Source of the DNA: Isoetes taiwanensis
Taxonomy: Eukaryota; Streptophyta; Lycopodiopsida; Isoetales; Isoetaceae
Assembly: GCA_021234155.1 (NCBI GenBank)
Contig: JAJEKV010000080.1
Location: 2,244,623 to 2,308,622, forward strand
DNA length: 64,000 nucleotides
Direction: 5' to 3'
Shown here: piece by piece, positions 1 to 37,296 of the stretch
How positions within the stretch are numbered: the first letter of the stretch is position 1
Layout: each line of letters starts with the position of its first letter
Notes under the pieces: generated by a model
What the model was told of the DNA's origin: nothing
Seen by the model: the letters and a program-made list of their open reading frames with translations, nothing else
The model's database searches: none
Made by a program: the position numbers and the translations under genes

Positions 1-790
1 ATTTCTATGTGTTTAGTTCTTTCGTGTAAAACAGGATTTTTTGTCATTGCAATACAACTTTGATTGTCACAAAATAACTCTGTGCTCTCTTCCTGTTTTA
101 TTTCCAACTCATCTAAGAATCTTCTGGCCCAAATAATTTCCTTTGCTTCTAGAGTTGTGGATGCATACTCTGATATTGCTGTTGACAAGGCTATAGAGGA
201 TTAACTAGAGGTTGATTTACGTTCATCTAAATCTCCACACCAATCTGCATCACTGAAACTTCTTAATCTCAGATCCTTTGAATCATAAACTATCCCTGTG
301 TCTTCTGTACCTTTCAAAAACATCAAAACTTTCTTAGCTGCCAGCCAATGCTGATATCCTGGATTATTGTTATATCTGCTTAACACATTTACTATAAAGG
401 CTATATCAGGCCTTGTATTGTTTGCAATGAACAATAAGCTTCCAACTAATTGCCTATATCGCACTTTTCTCATTCTCTCCCTTTCTTCTTCAGTTTTGGG
501 ACAAAGATCCTTTGACAATTTGCTTCCAGCAATGAATGGAATTTTTACTGGATTGCATTCTTCCATATTGAATTTCTTCAAAATTGAGTCTATGTACTTA
601 CCTTGGTTTAAAGATATCTTCATATTTGCTATGTCCCTTTTGACTTGAATTTCCAAAAACTGAGATAACTCTCCCAGGTCTGTCATCTTGTATCTGCACT
701 TAAGCATTTTCTTGCACTCATTTAGAAAATTCATATTGTTAGATGCCAATATGCAGTCATCAACATACACAGCCATTATACAGAATTCTC
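1..790 (-). pseudogene. Copia-1 pol, C-terminal part (RT end and RNase H)
   Basis: This is the C-terminal third of a Ty1/Copia polyprotein read on the minus strand; it would copy element RNA into DNA and degrade the RNA template. It opens at 776 with the RT catalytic YVDD motif (AVYVDDCIL), runs through the RT thumb region (MTDLGELSQFLEIQV) and the connection region (RQLVGSLLFIANNTRPDIAF), and enters RNase H (FSDADWCGDLDERKSTS). A stop lies near 198-200, where some residues expected between KSTS and ALSTA are also missing. Coding-like sequence then continues to base 1 (ALSTAISEYAS, LFCDNQSCIAMTKNPVLHER). It is the direct continuation of the pol fragment at 12423-14809, separated from it by the DNA transposon. 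The gene is broken and the 3' LTR lies outside the window. Confidence 0.93.
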
Positions 791-794
791 CCTC
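791..794. repeat. Target-site duplication CCTC, left copy
   Basis: The four bases CCTC abut the left TIR of the DNA transposon and recur immediately after the right TIR at 12423-12426. Collapsing the two copies puts the Copia-1 RT reading frame back in register, which fixes the duplication at 4 bp. Confidence 0.9.
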
Positions 795-819
795 AAGTCG
801 TATTTAATTAAAGTGGGAC
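795..819 (+). repeat. Left terminal inverted repeat (25 bp)
   Basis: Starts AAGTCGTATTTAATTAAAGT and ends GGGAC. It is the exact reverse complement of 12398-12422, contains the palindrome TTTAATTAAA, and diverges from the right end immediately inside base 819. Confidence 0.95.
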
Positions 820-1690
820 TCATTCCATTCCCATTTTTTTCGGAACCCTGTTAATTTACACGAAAAGGAGCACCCCGACCCGAAAACTATCCTTAATTCG
901 AATTTTTGTCTAGAACTCTGCATCGAAGCCCACCTCCAGGTTTCCCCTGGATAAAGAGTCGAGAACAAGAACAATGCAACTGAAACAAAGGAAATTCATT
1001 AAAGATTGAAACCAAAGCTCTAGTTGAAAAAGAATTTTTATTAATAAATTGAATAGGTACAATGTATTTTACATTGGACGCAGAGACCATGGCGGTCTCG
1101 CTGTCACTACAGTTACATCATCTTGGTAGGTGGTCCACCTAAGGGGATTAACTTGCGGCGCTTCTTCACGCCGACTGTAAGCCTTGGGGGCAATCTGAAG
1201 AGTGTGGAATGCCTCACGTGGAGGTGCCTCTGGAGCTCTACCGCCGACCTGTCACCCGACTTCTCCACTCGCCTCCCGCAGCCTTTCATCGAATATGCTC
1301 CTTCCCCAACCTCCGTGGATGTTATGCAATGCTTGCAAGATGCTTTGAGCTTCACGGACTTTCTCTTTGTTCTTTATTTCTTTATCCCCGGGGTGTAGCG
1401 AGCAACCTCTGAATTCGCGAACAACCTTATCCGGGCAAGAGTGTGGCGTGGTAGGGATCGTGCGAAACAGTATTTCTTTAAGCCTTAGCGGCGGGATGCA
1501 TGCCGCTGGGGCGGTCTGTGATGCCTGGCGGGATGCGTGCTTTCGTGTCGGATCACGTGTGCGAACCACGGAGCAAGGAGAGTATGATTAACAATAACGG
1601 TGCCATTAGTCAAAACGAAGAAAAGAATGTTGAAATCAAATTACAATGGAGAACATTCATTCCATACAAGCTGCATCCAATGGCGTGGGA
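820..1690. other. Left interior of the DNA transposon, no gene recognised
   Basis: The first 270 bases are AT-rich non-coding sequence. At about 1090 the composition changes abruptly to GC-rich DNA with many CpGs. Several overlapping open frames exist on both strands between 1113 and 1590, as expected of GC-rich sequence, but none resembles a known protein. Confidence 0.5.
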
Positions 1691-1933
1691 AGTAGTGTCT
1701 TTCTCGACTTCGCGAGTCGAGAAAAGGCGAGGAAAAAATCCAAAGTACAACCATTCTCATTAGAATATGGTTGCATCCAATCACACACGGAAGCATACAA
1801 ATGGTTTCGTCAACGAGACAAGCAGTGCCTTTCTCGACAACTCAATATACAAGTATATTCATTACAAAATGTAAGTACATTTGTTCACGTTTGTTTACAA
1901 TATTCACACAATTTGACTATCTGAAAGCAGAGG

Positions 1934-2619
1934 TCAATCTTCTTGATCACCAAAATATTTGTCGTCCATAGCTTTCATGATCGCCTTGCTCTCGGATCGG
2001 GTTTCGTGGAGGCTCGGATAGTTCCTAATCACATCGGCGACAAGAATGGCAAATAGGGATTCCGCCAAGACAGGACAAAGTCCGAAAGACAACCACCTAT
2101 CCATCTCATACTCTTCAGGTCGATATGCCTTAGCAAGGATTGTATTTTGCGAGTTATGATAGCACTTGTAGGCGGAGTCGTCTATGATCGCTGTGTTGTG
2201 TTTGCCATAGTCGGGGAATTGCTCATAAACCACCATCCGGCCTTTTTCACCATAATAGGCTTCCCCTTTGTGATGGCTGGATCGAGGTTCCGACACATGC
2301 TTTCGACCCTTTTCGGATCCCAAACGAACTTGAACTTAAAAAGTGGAAGGCCGAGAACATTAAGAACATTGACAATATTTTTCTTTGCCATACAAGACCA
2401 TATGCCCACTTTGAATCCCGTTCCATGCACCATTCAACAATTTCCTTTGCTCTAGGTACCGGATACACTATTTTATGCTCCGTTTTTCGTCCGGGATCTG
2501 CGAGGTGTTAAGCTTCGGGGCGTCTTTATCGTGGTATCTGCGGCTAATACTCCATTGGCGTCAAATATTACAAGCTTGGCGGGACCAATTTGGATCCCGT
2601 TGGAGTTTGGCTCGACCAT
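1934..2619 (-). pseudogene. Captured HAD/FCP1-like (NIF domain) phosphatase fragment
   Basis: The minus strand encodes most of a HAD-superfamily phosphatase of the plant FCP1/NIF-like group, which removes phosphate from proteins through an aspartyl-phosphate intermediate. Recognisable parts in order are motif I, KLVIFDANGVLAAD, with the nucleophile Asp codon at 2560-2562 and Asn in place of the usual second Asp; YPVPRAKEIVEWCMER; FKVGIWSCMAKKNI (motif II region); FKFVWDPKRV; and HNTAIIDDSAYK with the acidic pair at about 2177-2182 (motif III/IV region). A tail with LAESLFAILVADVIRNY follows. The family's usual serine-rich VGVWSS is VGIWSC here. ATG at 2619 is a plausible start, but a true exon start may lie upstream. 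Frame changes near 2480, 2415 and 2250 and one stop near 2486 break it, unless some mark introns. It lies inside the transposon, antisense to the DUF7869 gene, so I infer gene capture. Confidence 0.72.
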
Positions 2620-2964
2620 ATTTCCGGTTCATTGGGATCCATATCGCGGGATCATTATCTTTTCAGGTCCTTTACGGGCCGTGGCGGTGTCTTTTCTGGA
2701 TTGTCTTTGTGGAGTGCATTGTCCTCCTCGCGGCGTGAACCGCCGCTAGATATTGACAATGATCCGAGTCGTTGACATGGAACTCCACGAAATGATGACA
2801 TCTGTCGAAAGGAACGCGAGTTTTTCGATTTCATGAAGTCGAGAATGGAAAAAAAAGTATTGAAAGGAAGCGAGTTTTTCGACTCGTGAGTCGAAACACC
2901 GATAGAACAAAAGTAAACTCACCTCAATCTCGATTCTCAAGAATGTGTTCGGCAACATTCTGGT

Positions 2965-3448
2965 CTAAACCTTCGACATTTTCATCTCCGTCGGCTTTAT
3001 GCGCCTCGCTCGAGGTTTGTCTTCGTCCTCGTCGTCTTTCTTTGCTTCCATTTGTCTTCCTCCCTTTGAAATGCCCATGAAGCGGATCCGGGTATGACGA
3101 ATGGTTTCAACCATGTCCTTATTTCCAACCACGGATATAGGTTTCATTCCATAAAGCATAGCCCCTCGAGAGAACAGGCCATTCATGTACCACTCGCATA
3201 CAATTTGATCTTCCTCGACCAAGCTGGTTATGAAGTACTTGATAACTCTTGGCCGGATAGGAATTCTATGTATAGGACCTGTCGCACCATCTTTCTTTGA
3301 CTTTGTCCATCGATGGCACATCCTCCATAAATCTGCCGCCCTTCCAGGGTTCCATCTGCTCTTGAGAGATCATGAACCTGTCGAGATAATGATGTTCGCT
3401 AGACCACCACTTATCTAGGTCTATAGCCGATCTTGAAATCAAAACCAA
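2965..3448 (-). pseudogene. Unrecognised coding-like block in the captured DNA
   Basis: Two overlapping minus-strand frames make one exon-like stretch. The first runs from 3448 (LDKWWSSEHHYLDRFMISQE, then MEDVPSMDKVKE). The second continues from about 3290 (GPIHRIPIRPRVIKYFITSL, then EDQIVCEWYMNGLFSRGAML) and ends in a charged tail, KKDDEDEDKPRARRIKP, at about 2965. The composition is protein-like rather than random. I do not recognise the family. It has the same orientation as the HAD-like fragment just downstream and could be an upstream exon of the same captured gene, though HAD proteins are not known to me with this N-terminus. Confidence 0.4.
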
Positions 3449-3920
3449 AACTATATTGGCAAAGCTTGGTGCCTTGGCAAGCCAAGTCTACACTCATGTT
3501 CAAGTTCAGGTATATGGAGTACATGATCTTGTTGGTGAAGTTAATATCACCGCCCATTGGGAGACGGTTTGTCGATTGCCCGGCATGCAAAAGACAAGGA
3601 AACTGAAAGTATCAGTCGGTCATGTCCGGCACGTCTTGTACCACTTGCTCTATGTCACTTTGTCATAAAAAAGGGTGGGGTCTTCGATCATATTGATGGC
3701 AAATAGTGCCCCGCGGGTCCAGTGCAGTTCGGACCACCAAATCCCTTGTGCCCCAAAGTTACGAGAAATGGAGGGGAGCTATCATCGGCCTTAAATGGGA
3801 CCACCCCGAATCAAGCTTCCTCTTGAGAATTGCCATAGCACGTTCGAGGGAAGGGAAGGGTTTTGACGTTACGCTTTAGCTTGGTGTTGATGTAGGGTTG
3901 ACATAGGCGGTTCAATTCCT

Positions 3921-4584
3921 TCATGTCTTCCTCATCAAGGGCAGCCTTTTCCTTGTAATAATCAAAGTCATGGTATTCATTAGATGCAACGTTGCGAGAA
4001 CTTCGTGATGCCTTCTTCTAACGCTTATTTGTCTCTTTAGGTTGTGGCATAATCCTTTCGCGCCCCGCATTTTAGAACTCCTAGTCTTCCTTAGCGGGGA
4101 TTGTTCCATCAAGATTACGCCTTGTAGGTCAAGCGTTTCTTTGTCGTCGGGCCACAGTATCCTTTTCATGAGCGCTTGTCGAGCGGCTTGGGGTCCGGCA
4201 CGCTTGGAAATTCTCCATTGCTGTCCTTCAGCCTTGCCTCTTATCCATTGAGCCCATATCTCATCCATTTCTCCCCGGACCGCCTCGATTGCTAAGAATG
4301 AGGTCATATTGGTCCGAGAGAGACTCTACCCTTCCTTGGTGTTCTCTTCTTCTTCTCCTCTTCATCTTCTCCCTCATCATCTTCCTGGCCCTCCGTGAGA
4401 ACATATCTGCGAGTTTCTCAAAGGTCTTCCACTTATCAGGGAGCCCTGTTTCCTTTAGGGCCGAGGACAACCCAATGCTTTCCAGCTTGTTGCGGCGTGT
4501 ATGATCAGTCGGGATCACGGGCTGCATTCGGTCAATGTCCCAATGTCGAGCATGAAAGTATCTACAAACACCCAAGGTAAACAC
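3921..4584 (-). pseudogene. Unrecognised coding-like block, basic and charged
   Basis: Two minus-strand frames overlap at about 4261-4307 and read as one interrupted protein. The first begins FHARHWDIDRMQPVIPTDHT and continues LPDKWKTFEKLADMFSRRAR with a run of Arg and Lys. The second continues MTSFLAIEAVRGEMDEIWAQ, then RQALMKRILWPDDKETLDLQ. The charged helical middle could be a coiled coil. I do not recognise a family. The 470 bases between this block and the one ending at 3448 hold no gene I can support. Confidence 0.38.
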
Positions 4585-4594
4585 TAAATAGTAG

Positions 4595-4687
4595 CCCGAA
4601 GTAGAAGAAAATTAGACATTCAAGGGACTTTCGACTTCGCGAAATGAAAGTCCCTTTGAATGTCTAATTTTCTTTTACTTCTACGGG
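4595..4687. repeat. Long perfect-armed hairpin
   Basis: The left arm at 4595-4632 pairs with 4646-4687. The inner 26 bases are complementary except for one extra T in the right arm, and pairing extends outward through the GTAGAAG/CTTCTAC blocks with a small bulge. The 13-base loop (GACTTCGCGAAAT) is itself a version of the dispersed palindrome. Confidence 0.85.
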
Positions 4688-4744
4688 TTTTCGACTTCGC
4701 GAGTCGAGAAAGCTATGCATCCTTTGATTTCTGTGTTCCCTGGC

Positions 4745-4882
4745 TTTCGACTCGCGGTCCGAAACCCCGATGATAATCGGAAATGTTAGGATGGTAGGGC
4801 TTTTCGACTTCGCAGTCGAAAAACTGATGATAAAGGGAAATGTTAGGATGGTAGGGCATTCTCGACTCGCGAAGTCGAGAAT
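4745..4882. repeat. Alternating palindrome and 32-bp unit array
   Basis: The order is palindrome (4745-4764), 32-bp unit (4769-4800), palindrome (4801-4822), second copy of the unit (4826-4857), palindrome (4858-4882). The two units differ at only a few positions and share GAAATGTTAGGATGGTAGGG. The palindromes differ more from one another than the units do. Confidence 0.85.
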
Positions 4883-4961
4883 GGAAAGAATCGAGAGTTA
4901 TTTACCTTTACGTAGGCGGCACTTTGCTATTGTGTTCTGGCGGTGGCTAATCTTTGGCCGG

Positions 4962-5328
4962 TTAGGTTCTTGGCGTCTCCATTTGAAGAACTCTGCACTC
5001 TCGCTTGGCATATCTATCCTTGATCGCTGCGGCACCTCCTTCTAAAATGCGCAATACTTGCGCCCTCAGCGAATCTTGACCGTCCACTACCCGAACGGAC
5101 GTCTTTTCCCTTGAGGTCTTCCTCGGACTTCGGTGAACAACTGGCCGGTCGATCTGCTGAAAGGTATGACATCCATGGGCATTGGATCTCGGCAGCGGGG
5201 ATGTCGCACCATCGGGTTGAGAATCTCCGGCATGTGTGCTTTGGATTAAATTCAATGGTTGAACAAGGCGGCATCTCCGGTGCGGACCGGGGGTCGATGT
5301 CCAAGAGCGGCTTGTGTGCTATTCCCAA
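4962..5328 (-). other. GC-rich captured DNA with open minus frames, unrecognised
   Basis: Overlapping minus-strand open frames of about 100 codons contain pieces such as HPRCRDPMPMDVIPFSRST, but no frame stays open over the whole block and no known domain is visible. I treat it as captured or decayed sequence. Confidence 0.3.
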
Positions 5329-5494
5329 CGGATAATACTTGAGCCAGCCGGCTCCATTTTACGTGCCCCTCTACGTGAAATCGATCTGGTCATCACGGAT
5401 CCATTAGTTGGGAGTCCACCATATCTTCGTCTGCTTCATCATCGATTCCTCCCGTGTGGTGTCATCTTCTCCATCTTTGGTCTTGTGGGACTTT

Positions 5495-6222
5495 TTACGT
5501 ATGAACCACAACTTCCCTCCCCTTTGCAGAGTGTTGTAGAGTCTTCCAGACGGTAGAAGTGAAGCTCCCCGTATTGAATAGTTTTTCCCTGACTCTGGAA
5601 ATCTCCATTCCAAGCTCCCTGGATGTTAGGGTTCCGGCCTCCTTCATCCCTTCCAAATCCTTCCATCCAAGGTTCTGACAATTTAAAGCGTAGGCCTTTT
5701 GTGCGTGCTTATAGCCCTTGCTCATGGAAGAGTGAGAATAATTTGAAACCGATAATTTTTAGGTGTGATAGAACTTACTTTTCCGGCGGTCTTGACATGT
5801 AGTGTTAGATGCTTCGAATCTGGCGCTGAGACGGAGAGCACAACACCGATTTTCTTGTACTTGTCTCCGGAGCTCTTCTTGTCCCTTTGGTGGAGAAATA
5901 GATCTTTCTCCTTCCCACTTCGCGATACCTCGACATACCACCAAGAATCTCTTTGGTGTGTCAAAGCTCTGTCTCCAGTCCCTCGATGGCGAAGAACGGA
6001 GTTGGCCCGGTGATCACTAGTGAGTCAGCGGTGAATCTTTGCAAGGCTAAAAGGATGGATCGATGAAGGTATTCCGACCAAAGAAAAACCTCGAGCTCAC
6101 CTAAGCCTTTGTCTTTTTTCTTCTTGCTACCGCTAGAACCGGCATCCCCTCAGGCACCTCGCTTCTTCGACGGATCGCCATGTTTGTATGCCCCTCATCT
6201 TCTTCCCCTTTCGAACCCATAC
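5495..6222 (-). pseudogene. Unrecognised coding-like blocks, possible 5' end of a captured gene
   Basis: From 6222 the minus strand starts with an ATG (MGSKGEEDEGHTNMAIRRRS). After a frame change it continues through a lysine run (SGSKKKKDKGLGELEVFLWS) and SLVITGPTPFFAIEG. At 5722-5910 it reads KYKKIGVVLSVSAPDSKHLT and LHVKTAGKVSSITPKNYRF, and at 5495-5725 YKHAQKAYALNCQNLGWKDL and GMEISRVREKLFNTGSFTST. These look like exons or frameshifted pieces of one gene in the same orientation as the HAD-like fragment. I recognise no family. Confidence 0.35.
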
Positions 6223-6230
6223 GTAAATTA

Positions 6231-7118
6231 AGTTTCCTCCGTGGCGTTGTAAGTTTTAGGACTGCATGTAAAAAGATCGGGCGTGTTCTTTAATTTGAAT
6301 TTAAGGACATGCAATCATTTAAGAAAAATGCGGGCTAAAGTGGTACCGCGACGGTCGTCTTTAGCCCGCCCCAAACACTATTTGAAATTGAATCACATCA
6401 AGGGACTTAGTGAGCGGAGTGTAGTTTATCTTCACTCGACGGATTGGCGACTTTGAGTTGGGAGGCGAGCATCGGCGCAGCGACCTCGGAATGGCGCCCT
6501 GACGCAGTAAGCTCCTCCACCGGCGCCTTTGCTCGTGTATTTTTTGACGACAGCGTCTTATTGCAAGCAGTTGATTTGATCGATGAGCACGGAGCTAAGG
6601 TAGGAAGCGAAGAGGAGCTTCCAGACACGGGAACTCTACACTGCTGCGCCATGGAACGGGGATACCACGAGAATCGCGATGATACAAGTATTAGATGAGA
6701 ATGCACTCTTGATGAGACCGACAGAAGAAGCAAAGACTCTCGGTGAGGCTGCGGGATCCGTGATACAGTGGCCCAAGGAATTTCTGCGTGAAGAGGTGAG
6801 TTTCAGAGCTGCCTCTGTTATTTTGCGTGTAGAACATGCCGTCAGTGTTTAGATTATGGAACTGCTCGTGTTTAGACGGATTTACTGTTTCCTTGTCGAG
6901 CATTTTTCAGCTTCGAGAGATGATTTACTCTCGCGGCGGTTGAGAGATGCTCGACACGCGAAAAAACAATGGATCGAGGCTAAACTTGAGCGATTCCGTT
7001 TTAGGTATTTTTATTGGAATGTTTTCTTGGAATGTTGTATATAGAACAGGCTAGGTCTAAGGCCCAGGAGGTGCGGTTCAAATGCATCCTCCTGTGGTTA
7101 GTCAGAGAGGTCTCCACC
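6231..7118. other. GC-rich interior without a recognised gene
   Basis: Short open frames exist on both strands (for example plus 6444-6698 and minus 6407-6733), but they overlap each other and match nothing I know. No palindrome of the dispersed family lies here. Confidence 0.4.
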
Positions 7119-7702
7119 CAGTCGGAACCACTCCTCTTCGCAATATTCGAGGAAGATGGTTCGAAGGAGAGTGGCTCAGACATGCTAGAGGCACCTGGGA
7201 CTACAAACAGGAGAATACAAAGTGCTTGGTTGTAGAGACCTATACTAAGACCCAAAGGCCTGCAGACAGTCAGGGCCACTTCCCTTCGCAATATTCGAGC
7301 AGTATAGTTTGAAGGAGAGTGGCTCAGACTGCCTCTAGGCACCAAGAATGCGGGGCCGAGGCATTGCTATGTGGGATCGGCGAAGATGGTTCAAGGAGGC
7401 GGTCTTTTTTTGGGTAGAGGCCATGTGGCGCCCACACATACGGGAGAATTGGGTTGCTAAGAGTTGGCACCGGCGAGACGGTCAAAACCACTTCCCTTCG
7501 CAATATCCGAGGAAGATAGTTTGAAGGAGAGTGGTTAAGACTGTCAGCGAGGCCAGCTCTAGAGTGCACTAGAGCCTGCGTTTTTCGACTCCGAAGTCGT
7601 GAAACCGCCGACACCCTCGTGGTTGGTCGCCGAGGCCTCCACCCGGTCGGAGCCGGTCCTCTTCGCAATATTCGATGAGCATGGTTGAAGGAGAGTGGCT
7701 CG
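7119..7702 (+). repeat. Four dispersed copies of an about 65-bp stem-like repeat
   Basis: Copies lie at about 7119-7180, 7266-7330, 7477-7540 and 7643-7702, with a partial copy at 7378-7400. Each has the core TTCGCAATATTCGA and ends GAAGGAGAGTGG. The start CCACT-CC-CTTC can pair with the GAAGG-AGTGG end, giving a stem around the core. Copies one and four also share their upstream flank (CCACCC-GTCGGA). Spacing is about 150-210 bases. Confidence 0.8.
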
Positions 7703-8030
7703 GTTGGGTGGAGGCACTGCTTGCGACCGCACAAAGGGCTATTATTGAGGGGTATGACATTCTCGACTCACGAAGTCGAGAAGGCTGCAGCAGCTTAAAA
7801 AGAATGTGAAGATGTTGGGTAGTTTGTGTGCAATCCGAATCAATGAGTCGAGAATCCCTCAACCACCCAGCGGTCCAGTGTACACTCCCACTTCTCGCCT
7901 CGGAAGTCGAGAAGTTCTCGACTTCTTGAGTCGAGAAGAAGGCTGTACTTTGGACTGTTGGCAAGCTGAGGTATTCTCAACTTCGCCCTCCCTTCTGCAT
8001 GTCTCTGCGGTGGAGGATATCTTTGTGAGT

Positions 8031-9875
8031 TAGAAATGCGGATTCTTTGAAGCAATTCCTATTCTTAGTTCTTAGTGGGAGAAAAACATTCCTAGTTATG
8101 TTACGTTATGAAACATTCTTAGGCAGGTTTAGCTATATCTTTTGTGAATCTCTTCTAGTAATGTTACGTTAATGCTCTGCAATATCTTACTTCCTAACAC
8201 TGTCTCGATGATTTCTATCTGGGTTCCTTGCTACTACTCTTACCACTATTCTCACTTGTGCCTGTACAATGTATTCAATTCAACCACAAGCAAAAAAAGA
8301 TAACAAAAGCAGAAAACAATACAAAAGGAAAAGCGGATCGCTTGAGAGATTAGTGAGATTAATGAGAAAAGCAGAAGCGGTGGAGACAAATGAGATTAAT
8401 GAGAAAACAGAGAACAGTAGAGAGAAATGAGATTAAAAAGGGTATGATATTACAAAACATACACGGAAGATTTCTTTGGATGAGGAGGAAGCTCCGTGTT
8501 CGATTCCATGTGGGTGCAGGTCCTTATACCAAAGCGTGAATAAGGATTTGTCGGTACTGTAAATTGTATCGGGGATTAATAAGAGCCTCTAACAACAGAA
8601 TATAAGTAAAAATGCGAGTAAAGGACTTCTGAGAAAACTAAAAAGCGCAGTAAAAAGGCCTCACTTTCTTCTCGAGGAAATGCCTTGGCTCGAACACTCA
8701 ATCTGCTTGAAAAACTTATTTGGAAGGCGTCCGATCCGTCGACCAAAATTTCTTTGTCATAAGATGGCCTTGGAATGGCTCGGTTCGATCGATCGCCTGA
8801 TCGGAAAACCGGGCGCTTAAGGAAGAATAGGAGGAAAATAGGAGGAAGAATGGTCGGGGGGAGAGGAAGAGGGTGCAGTTAATTATGCCTGCACCCTCGA
8901 ACCTCGTAAAAGTGCAATAATAAACTTACATCGCGTGTGGGCCATGCCCTCCATGGCGTGGCGATGGAGTTCTTGACATGGCCATGCTTTCAGCCTCTGA
9001 GGAGGCGCCACGTGGCCATGACAAGATATTAAAGGTTATATGTTTATATATGTTATCTTATGTTATATATTTAATATGGTTTCAATGGTTGAATAGTATT
9101 AAAGGTTATATATGGTTACAATGTTTACATATGGTTTACAATGAATATGGTTGTATGGTTTAATATGATTATATGATTTTAGTTAATATGGTTGTATGAT
9201 TTAATATGGTTTAATATGGTTATATTTAATATGTTTGTATGGTTTTATATGGTTCATATGGTCATATTTGTGGTGTTTGGGGCTATATGGTTTTAATGTT
9301 AGCTTTTTCATTCAGGGGAGCATGTGAGATGAGTAAAATGGAGCCAAGGAAGTCAGTGAGAGACCATTGCCCCTAGGCTCCAATGGAGGAAGATGGGTTG
9401 CCTTTTGTTGCACCCTTGCAAACTGGGCGGTATTCTTGAGAGGGGATAATAGCTGCAGTTGATCCATTTGATAGTGTGAATGATGAAAGGTGGGAGATGA
9501 TCATCTTGGAGTTGGCATTGTGAAGCTTCTTATCCAAGTTGATACAATCATGTCCCGGAGAAGCTCTAGTGATTGCATTTGTGCTTACGGGTTGTTGGAG
9601 TCCCAAACTCGGTTTGAGATGGCCAATCGGATATATTACACACAAGAATGGTGATAGTGGAATGCCCTATTGAACTACATACCCCAAGGCCCACCCAAGG
9701 CCATGTGGAAGATTTGGTGGTCCATGAGCATCCTTTGATCACAAGGAAGAGACGCTATGTTTTTCATAAGAGGCAGACCAAGGGTGCCCAAGAGGCCTAG
9801 AAGTGACAAATTTTTAGAGAGGATGGAAAGTATGGCCCCAACCAAAGAAAACCTAGAGGCAATTAGGGGACAAGA
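8031..9875. other. AT-rich non-coding segment of the DNA transposon
   Basis: The GC-rich block ends at about 8030. From 9030 to 9290 the sequence is a degenerate simple repeat built on ATATGGTT and TTTAATATGG. Between 9310 and 9875 there is sequence in the DUF7869 gene's direction that may include its eroded 5' end or an intron, but I cannot support a frame there. Confidence 0.5.
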
Positions 9876-12238
9876 GTGTTGCAACCTAGATTTGCCTGGG
9901 TCGATACAATGTGGATGACCTCGATGCGGATAAGGTCCCAATACATTGGACAACTTCAAAAAGATAGGATTAATTTCATTTACTCCTTGTGTAGGAATTC
10001 CGGCTATGATGAAAACACGGGAAGGCTACTATATCAATTGAGGGGCATGAAGGTATGTATGAGAGCATTGAGATGGATTCTTGGGGTGAGCAAGTCTTCA
10101 TTTTACGGATCTTGGGAGCGAGGTTAGAAAAGGGCACCGGTTTGTTCCAACATGGTAATGCACTCACTTTGAAACCTAGAGCAAATACTCTCAAGGCCAT
10201 TGCGGTCTTGAGAGCTTTGTGAGATACATGTCTCAATCTATGCCCCACAAGTCGAAGGTGAGCGAGCATTGTGTGCGAAAGTGGTCCAAAGGGTATTGCC
10301 ACAACAACATTACATCGGAAAAGAGTGCCTTAAAGAGGTCAACTCCATCCTAGAAACTCTTGGAGGTAGGCCTCTTTCTCAATCACATTTCAGCAAGTTA
10401 TGGAGCACTCACTTCTCGGGGCGTGAGTGTCCCGCAACACATGCCATTTTCAAAGTGCAACACTTGCATTCAACTCAAGGATACACTTGCATCAAGCTGC
10501 AATAGAGAAAGAAAGAATGGCAATTAGGGAGCAATTTGCGGATCACCAAAGGGACCAAATATCATGTAGGCGGTTGTATTGGCGGTGAAGAACATTTTCC
10601 GAGATTGGCGGACAAATTTTTTTGTGTATAATTCATGATAAGATGGACCAACACAAGACTTTCTTGCCAAAGCTAGATCCTTTACCCAAGCGTTGTCAAA
10701 ACGCTTTTCAGATGAAAGTAAGTCTGGCGGGTGTCTTAACACATGGTCATGGAACTGGAACATATGGTCATTTTGTGCTTGATCTATGGAGGGATGATCC
10801 AAACTTCCATGTGAGCTCTATTTTCAAGTGTTTGAGAACACTAGAGAAAGGATCAATAGAAGGGAGGAGGTATTCCCCTTCAGCACCCATTTTTGAGGCT
10901 TTGATGGATGATCAACCGCTTTGTTACCAAAGGCAGATAAAAAGGCTCACATCCAAGGTGTCTAGTGAATCAAGGAGGACTTGGGATGATTTCCCCTTAC
11001 TTGAGAAACCACTGCCTGAGGAGCTATGTGTTCAATTGGACAACTGTTGGAAAGAAAACAAGAATAGATGGATGTTTGGGGCAATGTCATACTTGACAGC
11101 AGTGGGAGTATTCAAAGTTGTGAAAGTGGGATTCATGATGGTTGGGCATACGCATGATGATATAGATGGGTTCTTTGGAACCTTCTCCACCAAGCTCAAG
11201 AGAGAAAACGTGACTAGTCTACCTGAACTAATGGATGTGTTTGAGAGCTGCATTGACCCCAACCCAATGGCATTCTTGATGGATGAGGTTGCAGATTGGA
11301 AATCATTTGTAGAGGGATACTTGCTAGATGGTAAGGACCAGTTGACAGGACACACAAAGCCACTTCAGTTCAAGTTTTGGGTTAGGGATGGAATACCAAT
11401 CATGCAATATAAGTGGAGACCAGGTGACAAGTTGTGGATGCCACGTACAAGGAATCGAGTTGTGGCGAGGGGTGTCTTTGCTTTGGTGAAGTTCTCATCC
11501 CTAAAGGGCAGCCAAAACCACTACCTCCCTTCAAGACTGTCAAAGACTCTAGCCAACTAGTGAAGGGCATCAAGGATTACATAACGCCCTTGTTGAAATG
11601 GAAAGCACACCTCCACTCTTAAGAAAAATCAAATGGACTCCCTAATCAAGTACTGGGAGAAAGTTGTGACATGCTTAGAAACTGAACAACCATGTGGGAG
11701 GAAGCTAAGAGACGGGTTCTTGCCAGAGTCAAGATGGGAGGGTTCTCAAGGAGCAAGCACGTCTAAGAATGTTCACTTGGGTCCTAACAAGGGTTCCAAG
11801 TGGTTTTGGGAAATAAGGCCTCAAAGCCAAAGTGGTTTGATCTTCCCGAGTGGGATCCCTTTGAGGACATCAAGGAAGGATACTTTGTGCTAGTAAGGCG
11901 ATGATGAGGGGCTGTCCAATATGGTTAGGGGTGGCACTCTCGATGTAACCACCACTATGCACGATGGAGAGGAGTTACGTCACGGATTCCAAATTCAATA
12001 TTGGGAGCCCATTGGGAGACACAAGAAAGGCAACTTGAAGGAGCAATACACAATTCTTGGGGAGAAGAAGTGGAGGGCAAATTATGCTGATCCTCAAAGG
12101 AGGGAATTGGTGGAGTGTGTGGTATGGTCATATCCAAGTTCTCACACTGCAAAGGAGAACACACACAAGATCCCAAAAAGGGAGATGGACAAAGCCATGA
12201 GCAACCTCCATGCTATATCATTGTATGAAGGTAGATAA
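9876..12238 (+). pseudogene. DUF7869-like protein gene, candidate transposase
   Basis: Pieces of one protein run along the plus strand. They are an N-terminal block at 9876-10127 (GRLLYQLRGMKVCMRALRWI); a CNTC possible metal-binding pair at 10456-10467; the main 312-codon open frame 10622-11560; KGIKDYITPLLKWKAHLHS near 11600; DLPEWDPFEDIKEGYFVLVR near 11870; and a C-terminal block at 11921-12238 (HGFQIQYWEPIG, ELVECVVWSYPS). The 312-codon part holds IIHDKMDQHKT (residues 3-13), VQLDNCWKENKN (137-148) and MVGHTHDDIDGFF (163-175), the signature I know from proteins annotated as DUF7869. Acidic residues at 6 or 9, 140 and 169-172 could form an RNase H-like DDD/E site; that is inference. Frame changes and stops near 10130, 10505-10620 and 11560-11900 mean decay, sequencing error or introns. 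It is the only long gene reading towards a transposon end. Confidence 0.78.
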
Positions 12239-12397
12239 TATTGAGAAGCCTGAGAACTTTCTCAACTAGTGGTTTGTAAAATTTACGAGGAAAACAAGTA
12301 ACCCAATTCTTTGTGTGTGATGTGTAATTCTATTCAAGCAATGAATTCAGAAATTTTTTTGTCTCATTTTCAGTCCGAGTCCCAAAATTCAAGATTT

Positions 12398-12422
12398 GTC
12401 CCACTTTAATTAAATACGACTT
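12398..12422 (-). repeat. Right terminal inverted repeat (25 bp)
   Basis: The exact reverse complement of 795-819, ending CGACTT at 12422 directly before the CCTC duplication. Confidence 0.95.
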
Positions 12423-12426
12423 CCTC
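12423..12426. repeat. Target-site duplication CCTC, right copy
   Basis: Second copy of the duplication at 791-794. It lies within the Copia-1 pol codons immediately upstream of the RT YVDD block. Confidence 0.9.
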
Positions 12427-14804
12427 TTTCTTCAGCAGATAAACATTACCATCATTTTCTAACTTTGTGAAGCTTTGTTCCTTTAAAAAATTGTCAAAAC
12501 AAAAATACCATTGCCTTGGAGATTGCTTCAGACCATAGACAGCTTTCTTTAGCCTCCACATCTTTTCTTTTCCAACTTCAAAGCCTTGGGCTTGTCTCAT
12601 GTACACTTCTTCCTCCAAATCTGCATTAAGAAAAGCTGTGCAAACATCCATATGATGTAAGTTTAAATTCAAAGCATTTGATATGGCAATTATCATTCTA
12701 ATGCTTGCTAATTTAACAACTGGTGAATAGGTCTCATCAAAATCCACCCCTTTTCTTTGTGAATAACCTTGAGCAACCAGTCTAGCTTTGTGCTTTGGAC
12801 TACCATCAGCATTTACCTTCAATTTGTGTACCCATTTATTTCCTATTGCATTTTTCCCTTTTGGCAGGTCTACTAATTCATATGTAGACGTCCTTTCAAA
12901 TGATTTCAACTTCTCTACCATTGCTTCTTTCCATTTTTCACAATCAAATGAATTAATAGCCTCCTCAAATGTTTCTGGTGTTCCAGATTCCAACACCATG
13001 TGTATTTCTTCTGTGTTTTCTTTTAAAATATTTTGTAACCTACTACTTCTCCCATTTTCTTTCCTGCCAAAGTTATGTATGTCGATATTAATTTCTTGTT
13101 GCAACCTTTCTCCATCATTTTTCCTTTTCTTAGTCTGATCCTTTGCTTCTTTGTTTTCAGCTGGTCCAGGTTCCTGTCTTACCCCTGCAATATTTTCTTC
13201 ATTGTTATTTCCTGCTAGTTCATTTTCTTGTCTTTCCCCTGCAACATACTCATCTTCTAAACTTTCAGTGTCTGAATCTACATCATTTGCATTATTCTGA
13301 GGCCCTTCTTCTTCTATTGTGGTATTTGGATTTACCTTGCTATCAGCATTTGAGTTTTCATCCCCTTTTACGGTCTCCTCCTTTATTGAAGGTCTATATA
13401 ATGTATTTTCTTCAAATATTACATCCCTGCTCACCAGAATTCTCCTTCTACGAGGATCATACATTTTATATCCTTTAGAATGCATATCATAGCCTACCAA
13501 GTAGGTTATTATTGACCTATCATGTAATTTTTGTCTTAACTCTTGTGGAATATGTGTGTACCCAAGACAGCCAAATACTCTGAAATTATCATAATTTGGT
13601 GTTTTGCCTGACCAAATATATTCTGGAATTTTTCCTTCCAGACTTTTTGTTGGCAAAGCATTTTGTACAATCACAGCAGTTTTAACCACTTCCTCCCAAA
13701 GAAAATTGGGTAGACCTGCATGTTTCAACATGGATCTTGTAGCATTCAAAATAGTTTTATTCTTTCTCTCAGCCACACCATTCTGTTGTGGTGTGTGGCT
13801 GCATGTAAATTGCCTTTTAATGCCCTTGTCAATACAAAACTTGGCAAATTTTCTTGACATATATTCTCCTCCTCGATCAGACCTCACACATTTGATCCTT
13901 TTTCCAGTTTCACATTCTACCTCTGCTAAAAAAGTTTTGAATGCTTCAAAGGCTTGATCTTTTGTTCTAAGACAATATAATCTGATTTTCCTGCTGTAAT
14001 CATCCACAAAGGTTATAAAATACCTCTTTCCTGTTATTCCTGTCACATTCAATGGCCCACAGAGGTCTGTATGAATTAACTCTAAAATATCATTTGCCTT
14101 TCCTTTTGCTTTGGAAAAGGGTAGTCTGGAGTGCTTTCCTAACATACAACCTTTGCAAGTGTAGTTTTCTGTTTCTTTGTCTGATGATGCTAACAGGCCC
14201 TACTTTATCATGAATTCAATATTCTTCACATTGGTATGTCCAAGTCTTTCATGCCACATCGATATATTTGGTACTAAAGTCAAGTTAACATTTCCAACTG
14301 ACCGAGAATTTAAACCAAATAGATTGCCAACTCTTCTTCCAATAAATTTTAATTCATTTCCATCAAAGATTTTACAATGTTCAAATACAATTCTCAAACC
14401 CATATCAACTAATTGAGATATTGAAATCAAGTTTCTAACTAAACTTGGAACACACAAAACATTTTGCAGATTCACTACTCTTCCATTCAGATCAAAAAGC
14501 TCAAGAATTCCCACATCTTCAACTCTTTGTAAGTCACCATTTCCTACTTGTATATGTCCACCTTGGCTTCCCGTTTTTTCTTTTAGGATCTTTGAGTTGC
14601 ATGCAATGGACTTTTCTGCTCCACTGTCTAAAATCATAAAGTCATTGTCAAGAAGTTTATTGTTAGGAATAATAAAAGCTCTATGCATTCTTACCCTATC
14701 TTCTTCTGTTTCAGTAACTTCCTCAAGCATGATTTCTTCTGCAATATTTGCTTCAGCATTTGAGCTACTTCTGAATCTTCCTCTTCCTCTTCCCCTGCCT
14801 GTTG

Positions 14805-29963: not shown

Positions 29964-30571
29964 ATTTTATCCTATCAATGAACTCAACCGTTCGAGTCCT
30001 CATGGTATAAATTCAATCTGTAAATGATCCCAAGCTGTATAAATTTATACCCAGTGTTCTCACAATCTAAGTTTATATTGTTTGAGAACTCGGACAATAT
30101 AAATTTATAGCGTGTGAAAACTCTGACGGTGTGATCGATACTACTTGATTCCATTCATGGTTTCGTAGCATAAATTTATACCGTGGAGAAGTCTTGAGGA
30201 CATTTAATGTGCTCACAGTACAAGCTCTTGTAATATAAATTTATACCGTTTGGCAAATAACTCCAAAAACTAAAGCTTACATAGAAAAAAAATTACTCGG
30301 TTCAAAAAAAGCCAGGTTGGATGCCTACGTGGCCGTCAGTGTATACAGAAGTCTATAGCTATTCAGACGAGCAAATAAGAGCAGATATAGAGAGTGAAAG
30401 CCTTCGACTTCAATGTACATATGACGAAATAGTCGTGGAAGCATTCGGCCTTAAGTATTTTTTTGTGCTTTCATATAGCTGGTATAGTTTCTTCCTTTGT
30501 TTTGTTTGGCTTCCGTATAGATTTGTATCAGTTTGGTATAATTTTATATAACTCTGTATAAATTTATACCG
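29964..30571. repeat. Array of TATAAATTTATA palindromes
   Basis: Near-identical copies of the palindrome TATAAATTTATA, usually followed by CC or CCG, lie at about 30037-30051, 30096-30110, 30168-30182, 30232-30248 and 30556-30571, with weaker copies near 29964, 30004 and 30534. Spacing is roughly 55-70 bases in the dense part. Confidence 0.82.
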
Positions 30572-30911: not shown

Positions 30912-31125
30912 ATTCTGTGCAATTTACTTCATCCCGTCCTGTATATGAACACACACTTTCTTCTCTTGTTCAATTTATTCCATTCCCTCCCACACATGAA
31001 TGCATACTTCTTTCATATGTCGAATTTACTCCATCTCCACTCATCCAATAGACTTCCTCTTCCATCTTCCCCTAGCCGAACTTAGACTTCCTCCTGTAGT
31101 GTAATTCACTTCTTCACCTTCCAAC
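30840..31125 (+). repeat. Degenerate 54-57-bp tandem repeat
   Basis: About five units centred on TTCAATTTACTCCATCCCC followed by ACAC-TGAA and CATACTTC. The plus-strand translation repeats VQFTSSRP, VQFIPFPP and VEFTPSPL every 18-19 residues because the unit length is near a multiple of three. Confidence 0.75.
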
Positions 31126-31928
31126 TCGATACTTAAAACCACTTTTAGTGGCAGTAGGCAAAGGCTTGCAACTCCCACAATCTATGACACTTCAGGAGCT
31201 ACCCAACTACGGTGTCAACCTAGACTGCTTTTTCCTAGAGAAAGGCAATCTTTTTCCATGTAAGACCTTCCAACATCGAACTTCACAGCATCAGCCTCTA
31301 CACTCTCTATTCCTCTTACATCAGACTGCATGTAGTTCTTTCGAATGAAGATATAGCAGAACCACAAGATACTCTGTTTGAGTTTAAAGCTCTTGCTAGT
31401 TATCGAGACTTACAGAAGAAGGCTTGTACATCACACAAAAGAAAGGAACTAACGGACGAGGGGCACTTGAGAGCAACTCATACAAAGCATTGTTATCTAC
31501 AACACTGTTTACTAAAGATTGGCCTGAGAGAATTAAGGCTACTTCACTGCTACAGTTCAATGACATTACTAGAATAAAGGGGCTCCTTAGCTTTCAACAT
31601 TAGACCTGACAAGAGAGATGAGTTTTCTTACACAGCCACAATGTCTGTCAAACAACCTTTAAAATGATTCATGCTTTAGATGCCAAAAGCTTCATATCTT
31701 AAAGAAATGGCCAAGAACTCTGGCTTAAACAACTAATGCCACTCAGGAAGCATCTCACGAATTATGCACTTCATTGCGTTCCTTCGATGGAGGGATTCTT
31801 TAAAAAGTCTTGCGAGAAGCTGTCTAACAACCCAATGTATCACTTAAGTGATAAATTCTCTAAAGGTACAAAGTACAATACCAATCTCAATACAAAGATT
31901 TATGTATTGAGATTGACGACTGGCATGT
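31126..31928. other. Unassigned DNA upstream of the second DUF7869 relic
   Basis: Short plus-strand open frames (31148-31348, 31736-31978) have protein-like pieces such as LFEFKALASYRDLQKKACTS near 31375, in the same direction as the relic that follows. They may be its eroded N-terminal region, but no family signature is visible. Confidence 0.3.
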
Positions 31929-32766
31929 GTGCTACATTGTGCTTTGAAAGAAAAAAATTCATGTGTAACAATTACTGAAAAGCACCATATGTCTGTTTGT
32001 ACGGGCTCTGAATTAAAAGATCAAAGAAAGAATCCATACAACATGCTAAAAGTAAGCATCCTAAACTTGTTGCCCCAAATAATCTTAGGTCTTCTAACTT
32101 TTTTCTCTGCATGCACAATGAGAGAAATTCAACAAACAATGTGAGAACAAACAACTTCTGAAAAAGAAAAGTTGACTAAACACAGGAAGAAGACACAAAT
32201 TATCCACTCGGTTATGTGCCAATTGTCATTGGTGGAATGGAGCAGACAGAAACAACTCTAATCACACTTTATCAATGCGCTCAAGGATGCTTCAGAAGCA
32301 AGTTTTCTACACTTGCACATTGTTGGTGCCGTAGTTTTCAATGGGAATGTTTCTTATAGGACATTTCTGAATTATCCAAATATTCGTGCTTGATCCTATT
32401 CTCACTTCTCACTATCACAATCTGGCATAAGATTCTTTCTAGTTTGGAGCATATACCATCAGTGTTGTACCTCCATCTAGACAATACAACGAGAGAGAAT
32501 AAAAATCAAGCATTGTTTATCTAATGTCCTATACCCTTTGAGAAATGAATCTTCAAGATGGTGAAGATTGGTTCCTTCTTATTGGGCATACACATGATCA
32601 AATTGATCAAATGTTTAGTAGCTTCTCTAAACATATTGCTCGAAACAAATCTCTCAGCCTATTAGCAATGATTGAGGTAATCCAAGATTCCTACAATCCA
32701 CGTCCAGAAATGGAGTTGATGGATAAGGCTTATAACTTCAAGGAAGTGATTTTTCAAAAACACTAG
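31929..32766 (+). pseudogene. DUF7869-like pseudogene, copy B
   Basis: Eroded plus-strand relative of the gene in the DNA transposon. In order: MSVCTGSELKDQRK near 31990, matching the Cys-rich CNTCIQLKD region; VIGGMEQTET near 32230, where the first-acidic motif (HDKMDQHKT in copy A) has Gly at the Asp position; LHIVGAVVFNGNVSYRTFLN near 32310; LYLHLDNTTRENKNQALF at 32468-32526; and FLLIGHTHDQIDQMFSSFSK in the frame starting at 32545. Stops and frame changes separate all blocks. No terminal repeat like that of the transposon at 795 is found around it. Confidence 0.75.
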
Positions 32767-34380
32767 ATGGGTCACTGTGCTATTGAGCCTTTAAGAAATA
32801 CCATGTTTCAGCATCAAATCAAATTCTCACTTAATATAAAGGTGGCAAGGCCGCATTGCGAGGCAAGAAATATGCCACATCCTTATAGTGACAACTAGCA
32901 GGTGGTACTCAATTCACTCGTAGTTCTATGTTTTGGTAGAGGAAATGCCTTTCAGAAGTTTGAAAGAAATCACAAAGAATAAAAAGAAAGGAAGAGCATT
33001 TGACTCAAACACGTAATTGGATTGCATTGAAACAAGCATTCAATCATGCTCTAATTATTTTGAGGAAGCAGATACTTTATGTTGGCCTCAGTTTTTTTGC
33101 TATGCAATGTGAGTTGTTACATGCCACATCATAAGGTCAAAGACCTATTGTCTTTGACTGGCCAACTAGCAAAAGGTACAAGTCGAGATTCAAGCGAAAT
33201 GAATGCCATTGGTGCCTATCTTAGATGAGGATGATAGAATGATGTACGCTGGTCCTAGATGCACGTCGCAACAAGTTGCCGGGGTCTCCAAATCCATCTC
33301 TAAGATTCGGAAAGGATTAATGCTTGTTGCTATCCCTTTTGATGATGACGAGACTTGGAATGGTTGACTAAAGTACTAGATGTAACACAAGTCCTACGCA
33401 ACTAAAAGTGTGCTAGATTAGAACAAGTGGGGCCAATGCATTCAGTGGGAGTTATAATATGGAGATGGTAAAACCTGGAGTGGAAAAGAAAGCAAAGGCT
33501 AAATTCTAATTGTTGCTAACAAATTGCATATTGTGACTCAAAGTTGCTAAGGTTAGTACGTAGATTGAGTAACGCACCCAAAAAAATTGCCAAAGATGAT
33601 GAAGAAGATTCATTGGTGCATTGATGAAGAAGATCGTTTGAATACATGTAGTTTTGAGAGTGAGACGGAGGATACATATAGCTCTAATAGAATAGAATAG
33701 AATAGAATAGTTTTTTTAATGGTCATGGTCTGAACGAGTCAGAGGATGATATGCATCTTGATTTAACTTCAAAATGTAAGTTTGCCCAATAAGGCATATA
33801 TTTAAACAAAAAAAGCTTCAAGGGCTGAGGCATTGTCAAAGCATGTTACATTTTTGACAATTTTGTTCATAATTTTATAGAGATCTCAAAAACTTCGCAT
33901 GCAATACCTTTTTGTCACGCTAGTGCATTTTGTATTTTTTTTTGATGTTCCCCCCAAAAAAACCCCTTTTTTGAGTCTATAGGATTCTTAATATTTTCCA
34001 TACCAAAGTAGGGGGCTGAAAGCGTATCAAACATTTTTGCGCGGGAGCTAATCTCAAGAATCCTTCAAAAATAGTACCTAAAATGTCCATATTGCCATAG
34101 ACCTCCAAAACGATTTCAAAGTGCATTTGGAGAAAATTAGTGCATTTCAATTTTAACTTTATTCTTTCTTGCATAGTTAGAAGGATAATCATTCAGAGAT
34201 TGCCATAACCAAACGTATAACTTTATTTGTATAATACATGTATAATACTCAAAGAGGAATTGACTAAAACATGGGATCCATTGAAAAGAATAGAGTTACA
34301 ATAGAAAAGGAAGGCTCATATGACTACATAATGCTTTGTTTATCTTGGCGAGCACTGTTGCATCGTGCATTGGATTAAGC
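32767..34380. other. Unassigned DNA between DUF7869 relics B and C
   Basis: The first part may hold the decayed C-terminal region of copy B. An AATAG pentanucleotide run lies at 33686-33710. No other coding or structural feature is supported. Confidence 0.4.
33686..33710. repeat. (AATAG)5 microsatellite
   Basis: Five perfect AATAG units followed by a short T run. Confidence 0.95.
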
Positions 34381-34600
34381 TCTTACAATCATTCATGATA
34401 AAATGGACCAGAATAAAACTATGGTGCTTAAGTTTGAGAAGTTAGCCAAGTCAGTATGGAGAGAGGAGATCTATAGGTAGCTTTGATGCATAGTCATGGG
34501 TTAGGAGCAATAGGCCAGTTTTGGGTTGGGCTTTGGTAGGATGACTCTAACTTCCACACTGGGGGCAGGTTTGTTAAGTTTCATACTTTTCGTATTTTGT
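34381..34600 (+). pseudogene. DUF7869-like pseudogene, copy C (fragment)
   Basis: The plus strand reads LTIIHDKMDQNKTMVLKFEK, closely matching IIHDKMDQHKTFLPKL of copy A. After a frame change it reads LMHSHGLGAIGQFWVGLW and DDSNFHTGG, matching HGHGTGTYGHFVLDLWRDDPNFH. The rest is not recognisable; after 34600 the sequence is AT-rich. The close agreement with copy A suggests the same family. Confidence 0.75.
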
Positions 34601-37296
34601 TTTCTGAATTTGATTTCTATGCATCATTTAAAGAGGAATGGAAGGCACTATGAACGGAAATGACTATTGGAATGGATGAAGATATCGCCGTCAACACTGA
34701 AAAAGAAAAAAATAAAGACATAAGGATTGTGTCTGATTGGCATGTGCTAGTTAAGATAGTTTTTTTTTTGACAATTTATTGTTCCCTTGTTTCTTTATTT
34801 ATTCATTTATTTATTTATTGTCACTGCACTTCGTGTCCATCAAAGAAAATAAAACAATGATTTATCAACAAAGGTTTCACTTCTACAGCAAGTTTTCGTA
34901 GCCATCCCATATAAAAACTAATAGCTCATTTCTAGATTTTAGATATTCATAAAGATGTTCTGATCCCATGGAGTCCAATAGATTTGACAGAGAGCACATT
35001 ATATGGCGATCTCAGACATACCAAAGGTCGGTTAATTCAATCAAAGCATGGTCTTCATCCTCCACTTGTGTTTCAAAACAACATGGGCGTAAATGCAGCT
35101 TCCCTTTGGGATCCTTTGCTCGTCTTTCACACACATGCTAAGAATGAGAACTAAGTTTGAATTTCTCGCAGAATTGGATTGCCGCTTTTTTCCGGGCGGC
35201 TCCATCTTTAGGTAGGTTTACTTTCATATACTACTATAACATTAACTTTGTCTAGAAATTTCTTATCCCAATATCGCTGACAATAAGCACTTGGTAATGC
35301 CCGCTACCACATATGCACGCAAATCTAAGACCAGATCTAGGGAGATCATCAAGATCCATACCCCAAAAGCTGCCCAATCCACAAGCAGTGAGTATACCAC
35401 CGCATGATGCCGTGTTTGGGATTCTCATCGTGTCCTCGCTAAGTATCCCATTATCACCATGCTCCGCACTCGCAGTAGGGAAGAGTTTGAAACAACGTGC
35501 CACCTCCGCCGATACTTGATGCCGAAAGTAACCGGACCACACGGCTTTAATTTAAATTCAGCAAATGTTCCTAAGATGAATAAAGTGATCTTCGAGGAAA
35601 TACCTGGACATTGCTCAGACAATCAACTATCCGGGTGGAGCAAAATATACCATTGCAACATAGACTACAAACTGGCCCTAATTTCCAGCCACATATACCG
35701 CTTAAAACTACATGTTTTTACCACTTTTATCTGCTGGAGCATACAGCATGCACATAGCAAGCAATGCCACCAAAACCTCCTTCCCATACCTTTATATCCT
35801 ATAATCGATTCAATTAATGTAACCCGCACTTTCCTCTAATCTACTCGTTTCATGTTCCAAGTTTCCAAGCACAACAACCTATAGCTTCCAAAAGGATGCA
35901 ATTAGACTTGTTTCTCACTAAAACTGGCATCCACCATACACTTGAGGGGTCCCTGGAATTCTATTCGACAATCTTAGCTTGATCTCCATTTTCTCTTTAC
36001 CCATAACTTGCCTCCTTGATGCTTTCTTTGTTTTTATATGCTTTGCATCTTCTGCACTTATCCTACCTTCTCGTTGTCGGCTTTTCAAGATGAGATCATC
36101 AAGCTAAACCGTGACAGTCGGCCTTTTAAGCTACCGTTAAACATGACTCATTCCCGCGTTGCACACTTTTGAAACTTAATGATAATTGGTCTTGGTTTAC
36201 TCTTGTTTCTTTTCCCACAATTAAAACAACCAACAAAATCAGATCATGTAAATGTATTTCATATTTCTTCAAAGAAATCACCATTGCTTTTGTCACATTA
36301 GAAAGACTCCTCAAAACTTAATATTTGATCGCTTGTCGGTATGGGCTTGTTCTCTCTCATAACATTACTAACACGTACCTTTCCATATTCGCCAGCGACC
36401 TTTTTCTATCGCCCGTTCGTCCCTTTACATCTCGCTTTCATGTTCAATTTTCTATCCGCTTCTACATGGTTGTCTAATCGTTCTTTTCTTATAATTCTGA
36501 TTCACCGGCATCGTAAACAAGTCATTTTACATTTTCGGTTTTCAATCGCTCCTGTGCCTTTTCTTTCACAAATTTTAATTTAGTACATTAATAACTAAGT
36601 TTTTTGTTTTGGCATTGAAGCTTTTCATGTCTTGAGCTTAACCGCGACATCCTCGCGATCCCATCGTGGATTAACTGGCAGTTAGCAGATTGATTTTCTT
36701 CAACCGTTTTCTCTGCTCTATCACGACCGGGCCAGCTAAAGCGTAAATCAAGCATTTAATTGTCGCTCTTGTTATTTGTAAGGAAATTCTTTAATGTTTA
36801 GATATTTCAAATTGTCCTGCATGAAACCATAAAACATTTGCAAATAAATAAAAGCTTGAACTGCATATAATAAAAAAGAGAAGGATGTGGGATTGCTACC
36901 AATCAGAAGTTCGAGAAGGCCAATAAACCACAATAATGAAGAGGATAAAAGGGATAAAAAAAAGAAAAACAGGAAGGATAGAAGGCATGGTTCTTCTTTA
37001 TTCTTTTGTTAGTCCGCCTTATAGTTGATGTGCAATTAACAAATAAACAAATAAACATTTTCTAGGTGTGTGTGATATAAACTGTGGGCTTATGGGTTAT
37101 CTCGCATGTTTGTTCACCCTCGCTTCAACATATATACACACTTATTGCATTTGTAACTCAGCTATGATCCCTATGCTCCTATTCTGGCATCTGAAATTAA
37201 CCACATTCTTTAGAATTAAAGAGTTTTTTTTTTTTTGAAAACTATCGGTTAGTATCTGGAGAGGGGGGGGCAAACAAATGGGAATAGACAAGGACC
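34601..37296. other. Unassigned degenerate DNA
   Basis: Short open frames only. Between 34900 and 35150 there is protein-like text on the plus strand (DVLIPWSPIDLTESTLYGDL) that I cannot place. The stretch from 35840 to 37296 shows nothing I can support. Confidence 0.4.
35252..35542 (-). pseudogene. Possible RNase H-like fragment
   Basis: A 96-codon minus frame reads IPNTASCGGILTACGLGSFW and later CGSGHYQVLIVSDIG. This faintly resembles LINE-type RNase H (GPAGCGGI, VLIESDS). The catalytic Asp and Glu are not clearly present, so this is a weak call. Confidence 0.22.

Follow-up and report, generated by a model that had tools for sequence, protein, structure and literature searches.

A terminal inverted repeat transposon of Isoetes taiwanensis points to DUF7869 proteins as transposases, most likely of Sola type

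The DNA examined here, called the window throughout, is a stretch of 64,000 nucleotides from Isoetes taiwanensis (assembly GCA_021234155.1, contig JAJEKV010000080.1, positions 2,244,623-2,308,622 of the forward strand). At positions 795-12422 it holds an 11,628-bp insert that ends in perfect terminal inverted repeats (TIRs) and carries a decayed gene of the Pfam family DUF7869. We interpret the insert as a cut-and-paste class II transposon with a DUF7869 DDE/D transposase, most likely Sola1-like, and put the probability of this explanation at about 0.92. The central claim, that DUF7869 proteins serve as the transposases of elements with TIRs and 4-bp target site duplications, had been proposed in a first-pass annotation of the window and is well supported, because further copies lie elsewhere in the genome and form two families whose TIRs differ, because the gene adjoins the same end of the element in both families, and because the protein is predicted to have an RNase H-like DDE/D fold with conserved aspartates.

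Results

Boundaries and insertion site of the window element

The ends of the element and its insertion site were defined by the following features.

791-794, no strand: left target site duplication CCTC, identical to the 4-mer at 12423-12426
795-819, plus strand: left TIR, 25 bp
12398-12422, minus strand: right TIR, 25 bp
12423-12426, no strand: right target site duplication CCTC, paired with 791-794
201-803, minus strand: host copia reverse transcriptase (RT), downstream part, its frame extending a few bases into the insert
12406-14199, minus strand: host copia integrase and RT, upstream part, its frame likewise extending a few bases into the insert

The TIR sequence is AAGTCGTATTTAATTAAAGTGGGAC, and its two copies are 100% complementary. 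At up to three mismatches it was matched twice in the window, at both element ends, and not once in 100 shuffles. A scan of the window for inverted ends with identical flanking 4-mers, allowing a mismatch, returned 158 pairs, of which the 25-bp TIR pair was the longest and the next longest (19 and 17 bp) were the element's own palindromes; in 10 shuffles the longest pair measured 13-18 bp each. The host of the insert is a copia polyprotein (RT) gene on the minus strand, with Pfam RVT_2 matched on both flanks, and removal of the insert together with one CCTC yielded an open copia frame, YLLKKEGEFCIMAVYVDDCILASNN, through YVDD. The perfect 25-bp termini, the CCTC duplications and the copia frame restored to register, all described in the first-pass annotation, were thus recovered. 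Among the best 120 of 3807 copia relatives, those with names were mostly from land plants, at about 35-49% identity; a few carried bacterial labels and one came from a sea anemone (Actinostola). Another copia-like integrase frame was seen by eye at 61580-62275.

The DUF7869 gene of the window element

The gene lies in the right quarter of the insert and was reconstructed from these features.

9867-12238, plus strand: decayed DUF7869 gene, the putative transposase gene, in nine colinear profile pieces (tblastn, PF25273)
10589-11557, plus strand: longest open piece, 323 amino acids, catalytic domain (PF25273, E 1.9e-44)
10634-10648, plus strand: motif HDKMD, in the 323-amino-acid piece
11033-11044, plus strand: motif QLDN, in the same piece
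11144-11167, plus strand: motif GHTHDDID, in the same piece

Using a profile built from 51 relatives, nine pieces were found in order over 9867-12235, corresponding to profile positions 206-933 of a protein of about 945 amino acids; seven of them had E values below 0.01, and two were weak (E 0.5-0.9) and placed by order alone. The gene therefore extends beyond the open reading frame (ORF) at 10589-11557, and its stop codon at 12236-12238 lies 159 bases before the right TIR, which agrees with the earlier description of a DUF7869-like gene reading toward an end. The window copy is broken by frameshifts, with most of the protein remaining. Reading the breaks as introns was rejected, since sister copies are broken at other places and the frame of one of them, L057, runs uninterrupted through profile positions 521-933, a part in which the window copy has breaks.

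Further copies of the window family

We searched the genome (1.66 Gb in 1110 contigs) with the right 300 bp of the element, and 40 matches were scored of 1647 candidates. In each of the 20 loci fetched by the right end, one of them the window, the element terminates in one shared TIR, which was perfect in 17, had one mismatch in two and two mismatches in one, and the flanks beyond it differ in all 20. Of the 19 other copies, 12 were followed to the expected place of their left end, which was found in five. Four copies with a left TIR at up to four mismatches measured 12,125-12,181 bp; the left TIR of the window is also the left end of L057, L059 and L060, and of L061 with one mismatch. Matching 4-bp duplications flank L057 (TAAT), L059 (ATTA), L060 (TTCA) and L053 (ATCG, read by eye, the start of the TIR being altered in this copy), and L061 has no matching pair (CTAG vs ATCA). 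With the CCTC of the window, duplications were thus present in five of the six copies with both ends found. Further copies with TIRs and 4-bp duplications, which the first-pass annotation suggested looking for, do exist in the assembly, and the right end recurs at 19 sites besides the window.

A second family of DUF7869 elements

When the genome was searched for DUF7869, 150 of 9903 candidates were scored as hits, every one above the cut-off, and the same search of 14 control genomes gave no hits. Among 30 DUF7869 loci fetched, 20 share the terminus AACAAAGTTTAAAATGAAACGCAC, at up to two mismatches and at a near-constant place past the 3' end of the gene; it is the terminus of what we call family A. 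This terminus was found elsewhere in L004 and was divergent or shifted in L002, L003 and L023. The far end was found in six of nine family A copies followed, and all six have 4-bp duplications: GCAA, GGAT, TTAA, CCTT, GCTG and CATT (L009, L010, L012, L015, L021 and L007). Five of these copies are 8485-8636 bp long, and L007 is longer, about 10 kb by coordinates. Family A TIRs are about 30 bp by eye and differ in sequence from those of the window family; the two families have in common the DUF7869 gene, which adjoins the same end in both, and the length of the duplication.

Part of a family A element is also present in the window.

31147-33942, plus strand: second, older DUF7869 element, decayed, aligning to family A over 2973 columns at 68.7% identity

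The 3' terminus of this relic lies at 34140-34163 with four mismatches, and its palindromes at 30036-30570; the left end of the relic (31147-34163) was not found. Since the relic is a decayed family A copy, a 12-bp inverted pair at 31014-37826 that encloses it was rejected as its TIRs. Beyond its end, a stray piece of a DUF7869 gene with HDKMD lies at 34379-34477 and may be the remnant of a third element.

Relatives of DUF7869 and predicted active site

A single-sequence search returned 33 related proteins, and a profile search, with E up to 1e-3, 626 proteins from the database; the 120 matches listed of these 626 include proteins of the mosses Physcomitrium patens and Ceratodon purpureus. The contig L001, 4.3 kb long, labelled as part of a cyanobacterial bin and probably eukaryotic contamination, contains an intact DUF7869 ORF of 947 amino acids. 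Among viral contigs no relative was found with either the ORF or the alignment as query.

Three aspartates were invariant in all 51 chosen DUF7869 sequences, and they sit on the RNase H-like strands and helix of the predicted model. On this model, DUF7869 proteins would be DDE/D transposases of RNase H-like fold, whose three acidic residues lie where such enzymes are expected to have them. A search of PDB by sequence gave 0 matches, PubMed Central had no paper for six motif strings, and the solved folds nearest to the catalytic core were those of the Mos1 mariner transposase and retroviral integrases (PDB 5hoo, 6rwl). This is a likeness of fold only and not of membership, sequence identity in the rows named being 8-12%. 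The duplications that Mos1 makes are TA.

Passenger genes

Opposite the transposase gene, each family carries or retains traces of a further gene.

1937-2628, minus strand: passenger remnant in the window element resembling an FCP/NIF-type phosphatase (NIF E 0.022, below the cut-off; the rest by eye)
L010 113-3567, with L032 and L035: family A element whose methyltransferase gene is on the other strand from the transposase gene

The FCP/NIF-like remnant also occurs in at least three other copies, L081, L080 and L076, and therefore moved along with the window family. The opposite-strand gene of family A has an N6/N4 DNA methyltransferase domain (N6_N4_Mtase, E 2e-15, in one piece). No Pfam row for a ParB-like domain appeared in the five family A pieces scanned, and the window copy gave no significant match to the family A methyltransferase. 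Covering part of the frames, Pfam scans of 24 open pieces (19 of the window insert and five of family A) gave no hit to another transposase family. Separately, the window element has at 7091-7720 a direct repeat of about 105 bp in four diverged copies.

Family-specific palindromes

The least expected feature of the elements is a set of near-perfect palindromes that each family has for itself, TTCTCGACTTCGCGAGTCGAGAA in the window family and CGGTATAAATTTATACCG in family A. Those of the window element are as follows.

1700-1724, no strand: family-specific palindrome TTTCTCGACTTCGCGAGTCGAGAAA
2874-2899, no strand: palindrome of the same motif with one mismatch
4688-4883, no strand: cluster of three palindromes of the same motif (4688-4710, 4799-4824, 4857-4883)
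7758-7938, no strand: cluster of three palindromes of a related motif, up to one mismatch (7758-7784, 7890-7915, 7922-7938)

Six perfect-arm palindromes of related motif were counted in the window element vs 1-3 in five shuffles, and the motif recurs in eight of 12 left stretches of the window family. In family A, sites within two mismatches of GGTATAAATTTATACC number 26 in L010 and 19 in L021, and perfect-arm palindromes of any kind number 16 and 12, respectively, vs 0-2 in shuffles; the many CGGTATAAATTTATACCG palindromes of L010 are densest between the methyltransferase and transposase genes. A 29-kb control part of the window had four perfect-arm palindromes vs 1-6 in shuffles, and the surroundings of the second relic had three vs 1-2. 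In L001, TTTAGCTCGAGTCGAGCT-type repeats, some of them palindromic, lie at 1-600 and 3550-4327 on either side of the intact DUF7869 gene. These are possibly a third motif beside the gene, weakly supported by one perfect-arm palindrome vs 0-1 in shuffles.

Discussion

Taken together, these data are best explained by a transposase of about 945 amino acids, encoded by the DUF7869 gene of intact relatives and composed of a putative DNA-binding N-terminal part, an RNase H-like core and a C-terminal part. Its three aspartates (in HDKMD, LQLDN and GHTHDDID) would hold metal ions, and the protein would act by binding to the TIRs, cutting the element out and joining it to target DNA opened with a 4-bp stagger, giving 4-bp duplications with no fixed target sequence. 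The window copy, dead by its frameshifts, would have owed its transposition to an intact sister copy.

The support for this interpretation has limits: the left end was not found in seven of the 12 window-family copies followed, the far end was not found in three of the nine family A copies followed (L006, L019 and L022), and six of the 30 DUF7869 loci lack the terminus AACAAAGTTTAAAATGAAACGCAC and were placed in neither family. That the TIR-CCTC pattern arose by chance or as an assembly artefact has a negligible probability; we found nothing in its favour, the perfect 25-bp ends compare with at most 18 bp in 10 shuffles, and the right end recurs at 19 further sites. It is more reasonable to ask whether DUF7869 is itself a passenger of elements moved in trans by a different transposase, given that the window gene is broken and that large elements often have passengers, such as the FCP-like and methyltransferase genes here. 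We consider this very improbable, however, since DUF7869 is present in both families although their TIRs, sizes and passengers differ, and adjoins the same end in each; the predicted DDE/D fold with its conserved aspartates and the 24 further pieces scanned, free of any other transposase family, also argue for DUF7869 as the transposase. In the loci examined we saw neither a consistent lack of TIRs or duplications around DUF7869 genes nor a different transposase always carried in their place.

Sola elements have a DDD transposase, 4-bp target site duplications, TIRs of 11-1124 bp and sizes mostly of 2-9 kb, with some above 15 kb (PMC10741241), and belong to an RNase H-like clade (PMC3985635); Sola1-3 are subgroups of a single Repbase superfamily (PMC4455052). 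Both families described here share the DDD residues, in the predicted model, and the 4-bp duplications, and their TIR lengths and sizes fit this description (25 bp and 11.6-12.2 kb in the window family, about 30 bp and 8.5-8.6 kb in five family A copies). Within Sola, Sola1-1_Ec32 of Ectocarpus (PMC12477816) resembles family A in being large and in encoding an accessory N4/N6 DNA methyltransferase on the strand that does not carry the transposase gene, but it is 21.5 kb long and a ParB-like domain is part of its accessory protein, whereas none was detected in the five family A pieces; the window family differs further in its FCP-like remnant and the absence of a significant methyltransferase match. 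Because of the DDD residues, the 4-bp duplications and the opposite-strand DNA methyltransferase, we regard membership of the Sola superfamily as likely, by shared features rather than by comparison of sequences, with Sola1 probably the best home. Sola1 has been reported, in a table, from Physcomitrella (PMC9033089), and SOLA elements are more numerous in Azolla than in Salvinia (PMC6786969). The first-pass description of a poorly described superfamily fits the Pfam entry; elements of the present kind are presumably already filed as Sola in Repbase. Sola2-Fanzor elements are alike in their 4-bp duplications, short TIRs (12-21 bp), 888-amino-acid transposase and passengers, but Sola2 duplications (amoebozoan type) are AT-rich (PMC3627910), unlike CCTC, ATCG, GCTG, GGAT, CCTT and GCAA among our eleven matching ones. 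KDZ elements (Kyakuja, Dileera, Zisupton) are likewise large and have accessory genes (PMC12477816). An hmmscan against Pfam gave no KDZ row for the window ORF (E up to 1) or eight relatives (E up to 5). KDZ elements make 8-bp duplications.

A superfamily of DUF7869 elements separate from Sola1-3 is in our view unlikely. Several target sites do depart from the AT-rich Sola2 type (PMC3627910), the tie to Sola is one of features and not of sequence, and our search of PubMed Central found no paper naming DUF7869. Against separation, the DDD residues, duplication length, TIR length and size all agree with Sola (PMC10741241), Sola1-1_Ec32 likewise has an opposite-strand methyltransferase (PMC12477816), and Physcomitrella, which has DUF7869 proteins, is among the reported sources of Sola1 (PMC9033089).

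With the assignment to a transposase, a Pfam family whose annotation says no more than unknown gains a likely function; it has at least 150 hits in this genome and 626 database proteins, and host gene counts may include some of these. Ends, duplications and a predicted active site also become available for a rarely annotated group of transposons. Much more tentatively, and with the odds rather against it, the family-specific palindromes could be self-recognition sites, comparable to the parS sites of ParB, that an element-encoded protein binds or modifies in its own family only; the methyltransferase/ParB-like accessory protein or the transposase would be the candidate. If true, such self-marking would let an element escape silencing or choose its own copies for transposition. 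This transposon group is now linked to an opposite-strand DNA methyltransferase, seen before in one algal Sola1 element, and to family-specific palindromes, which suggest a self-marking system that can be tested.
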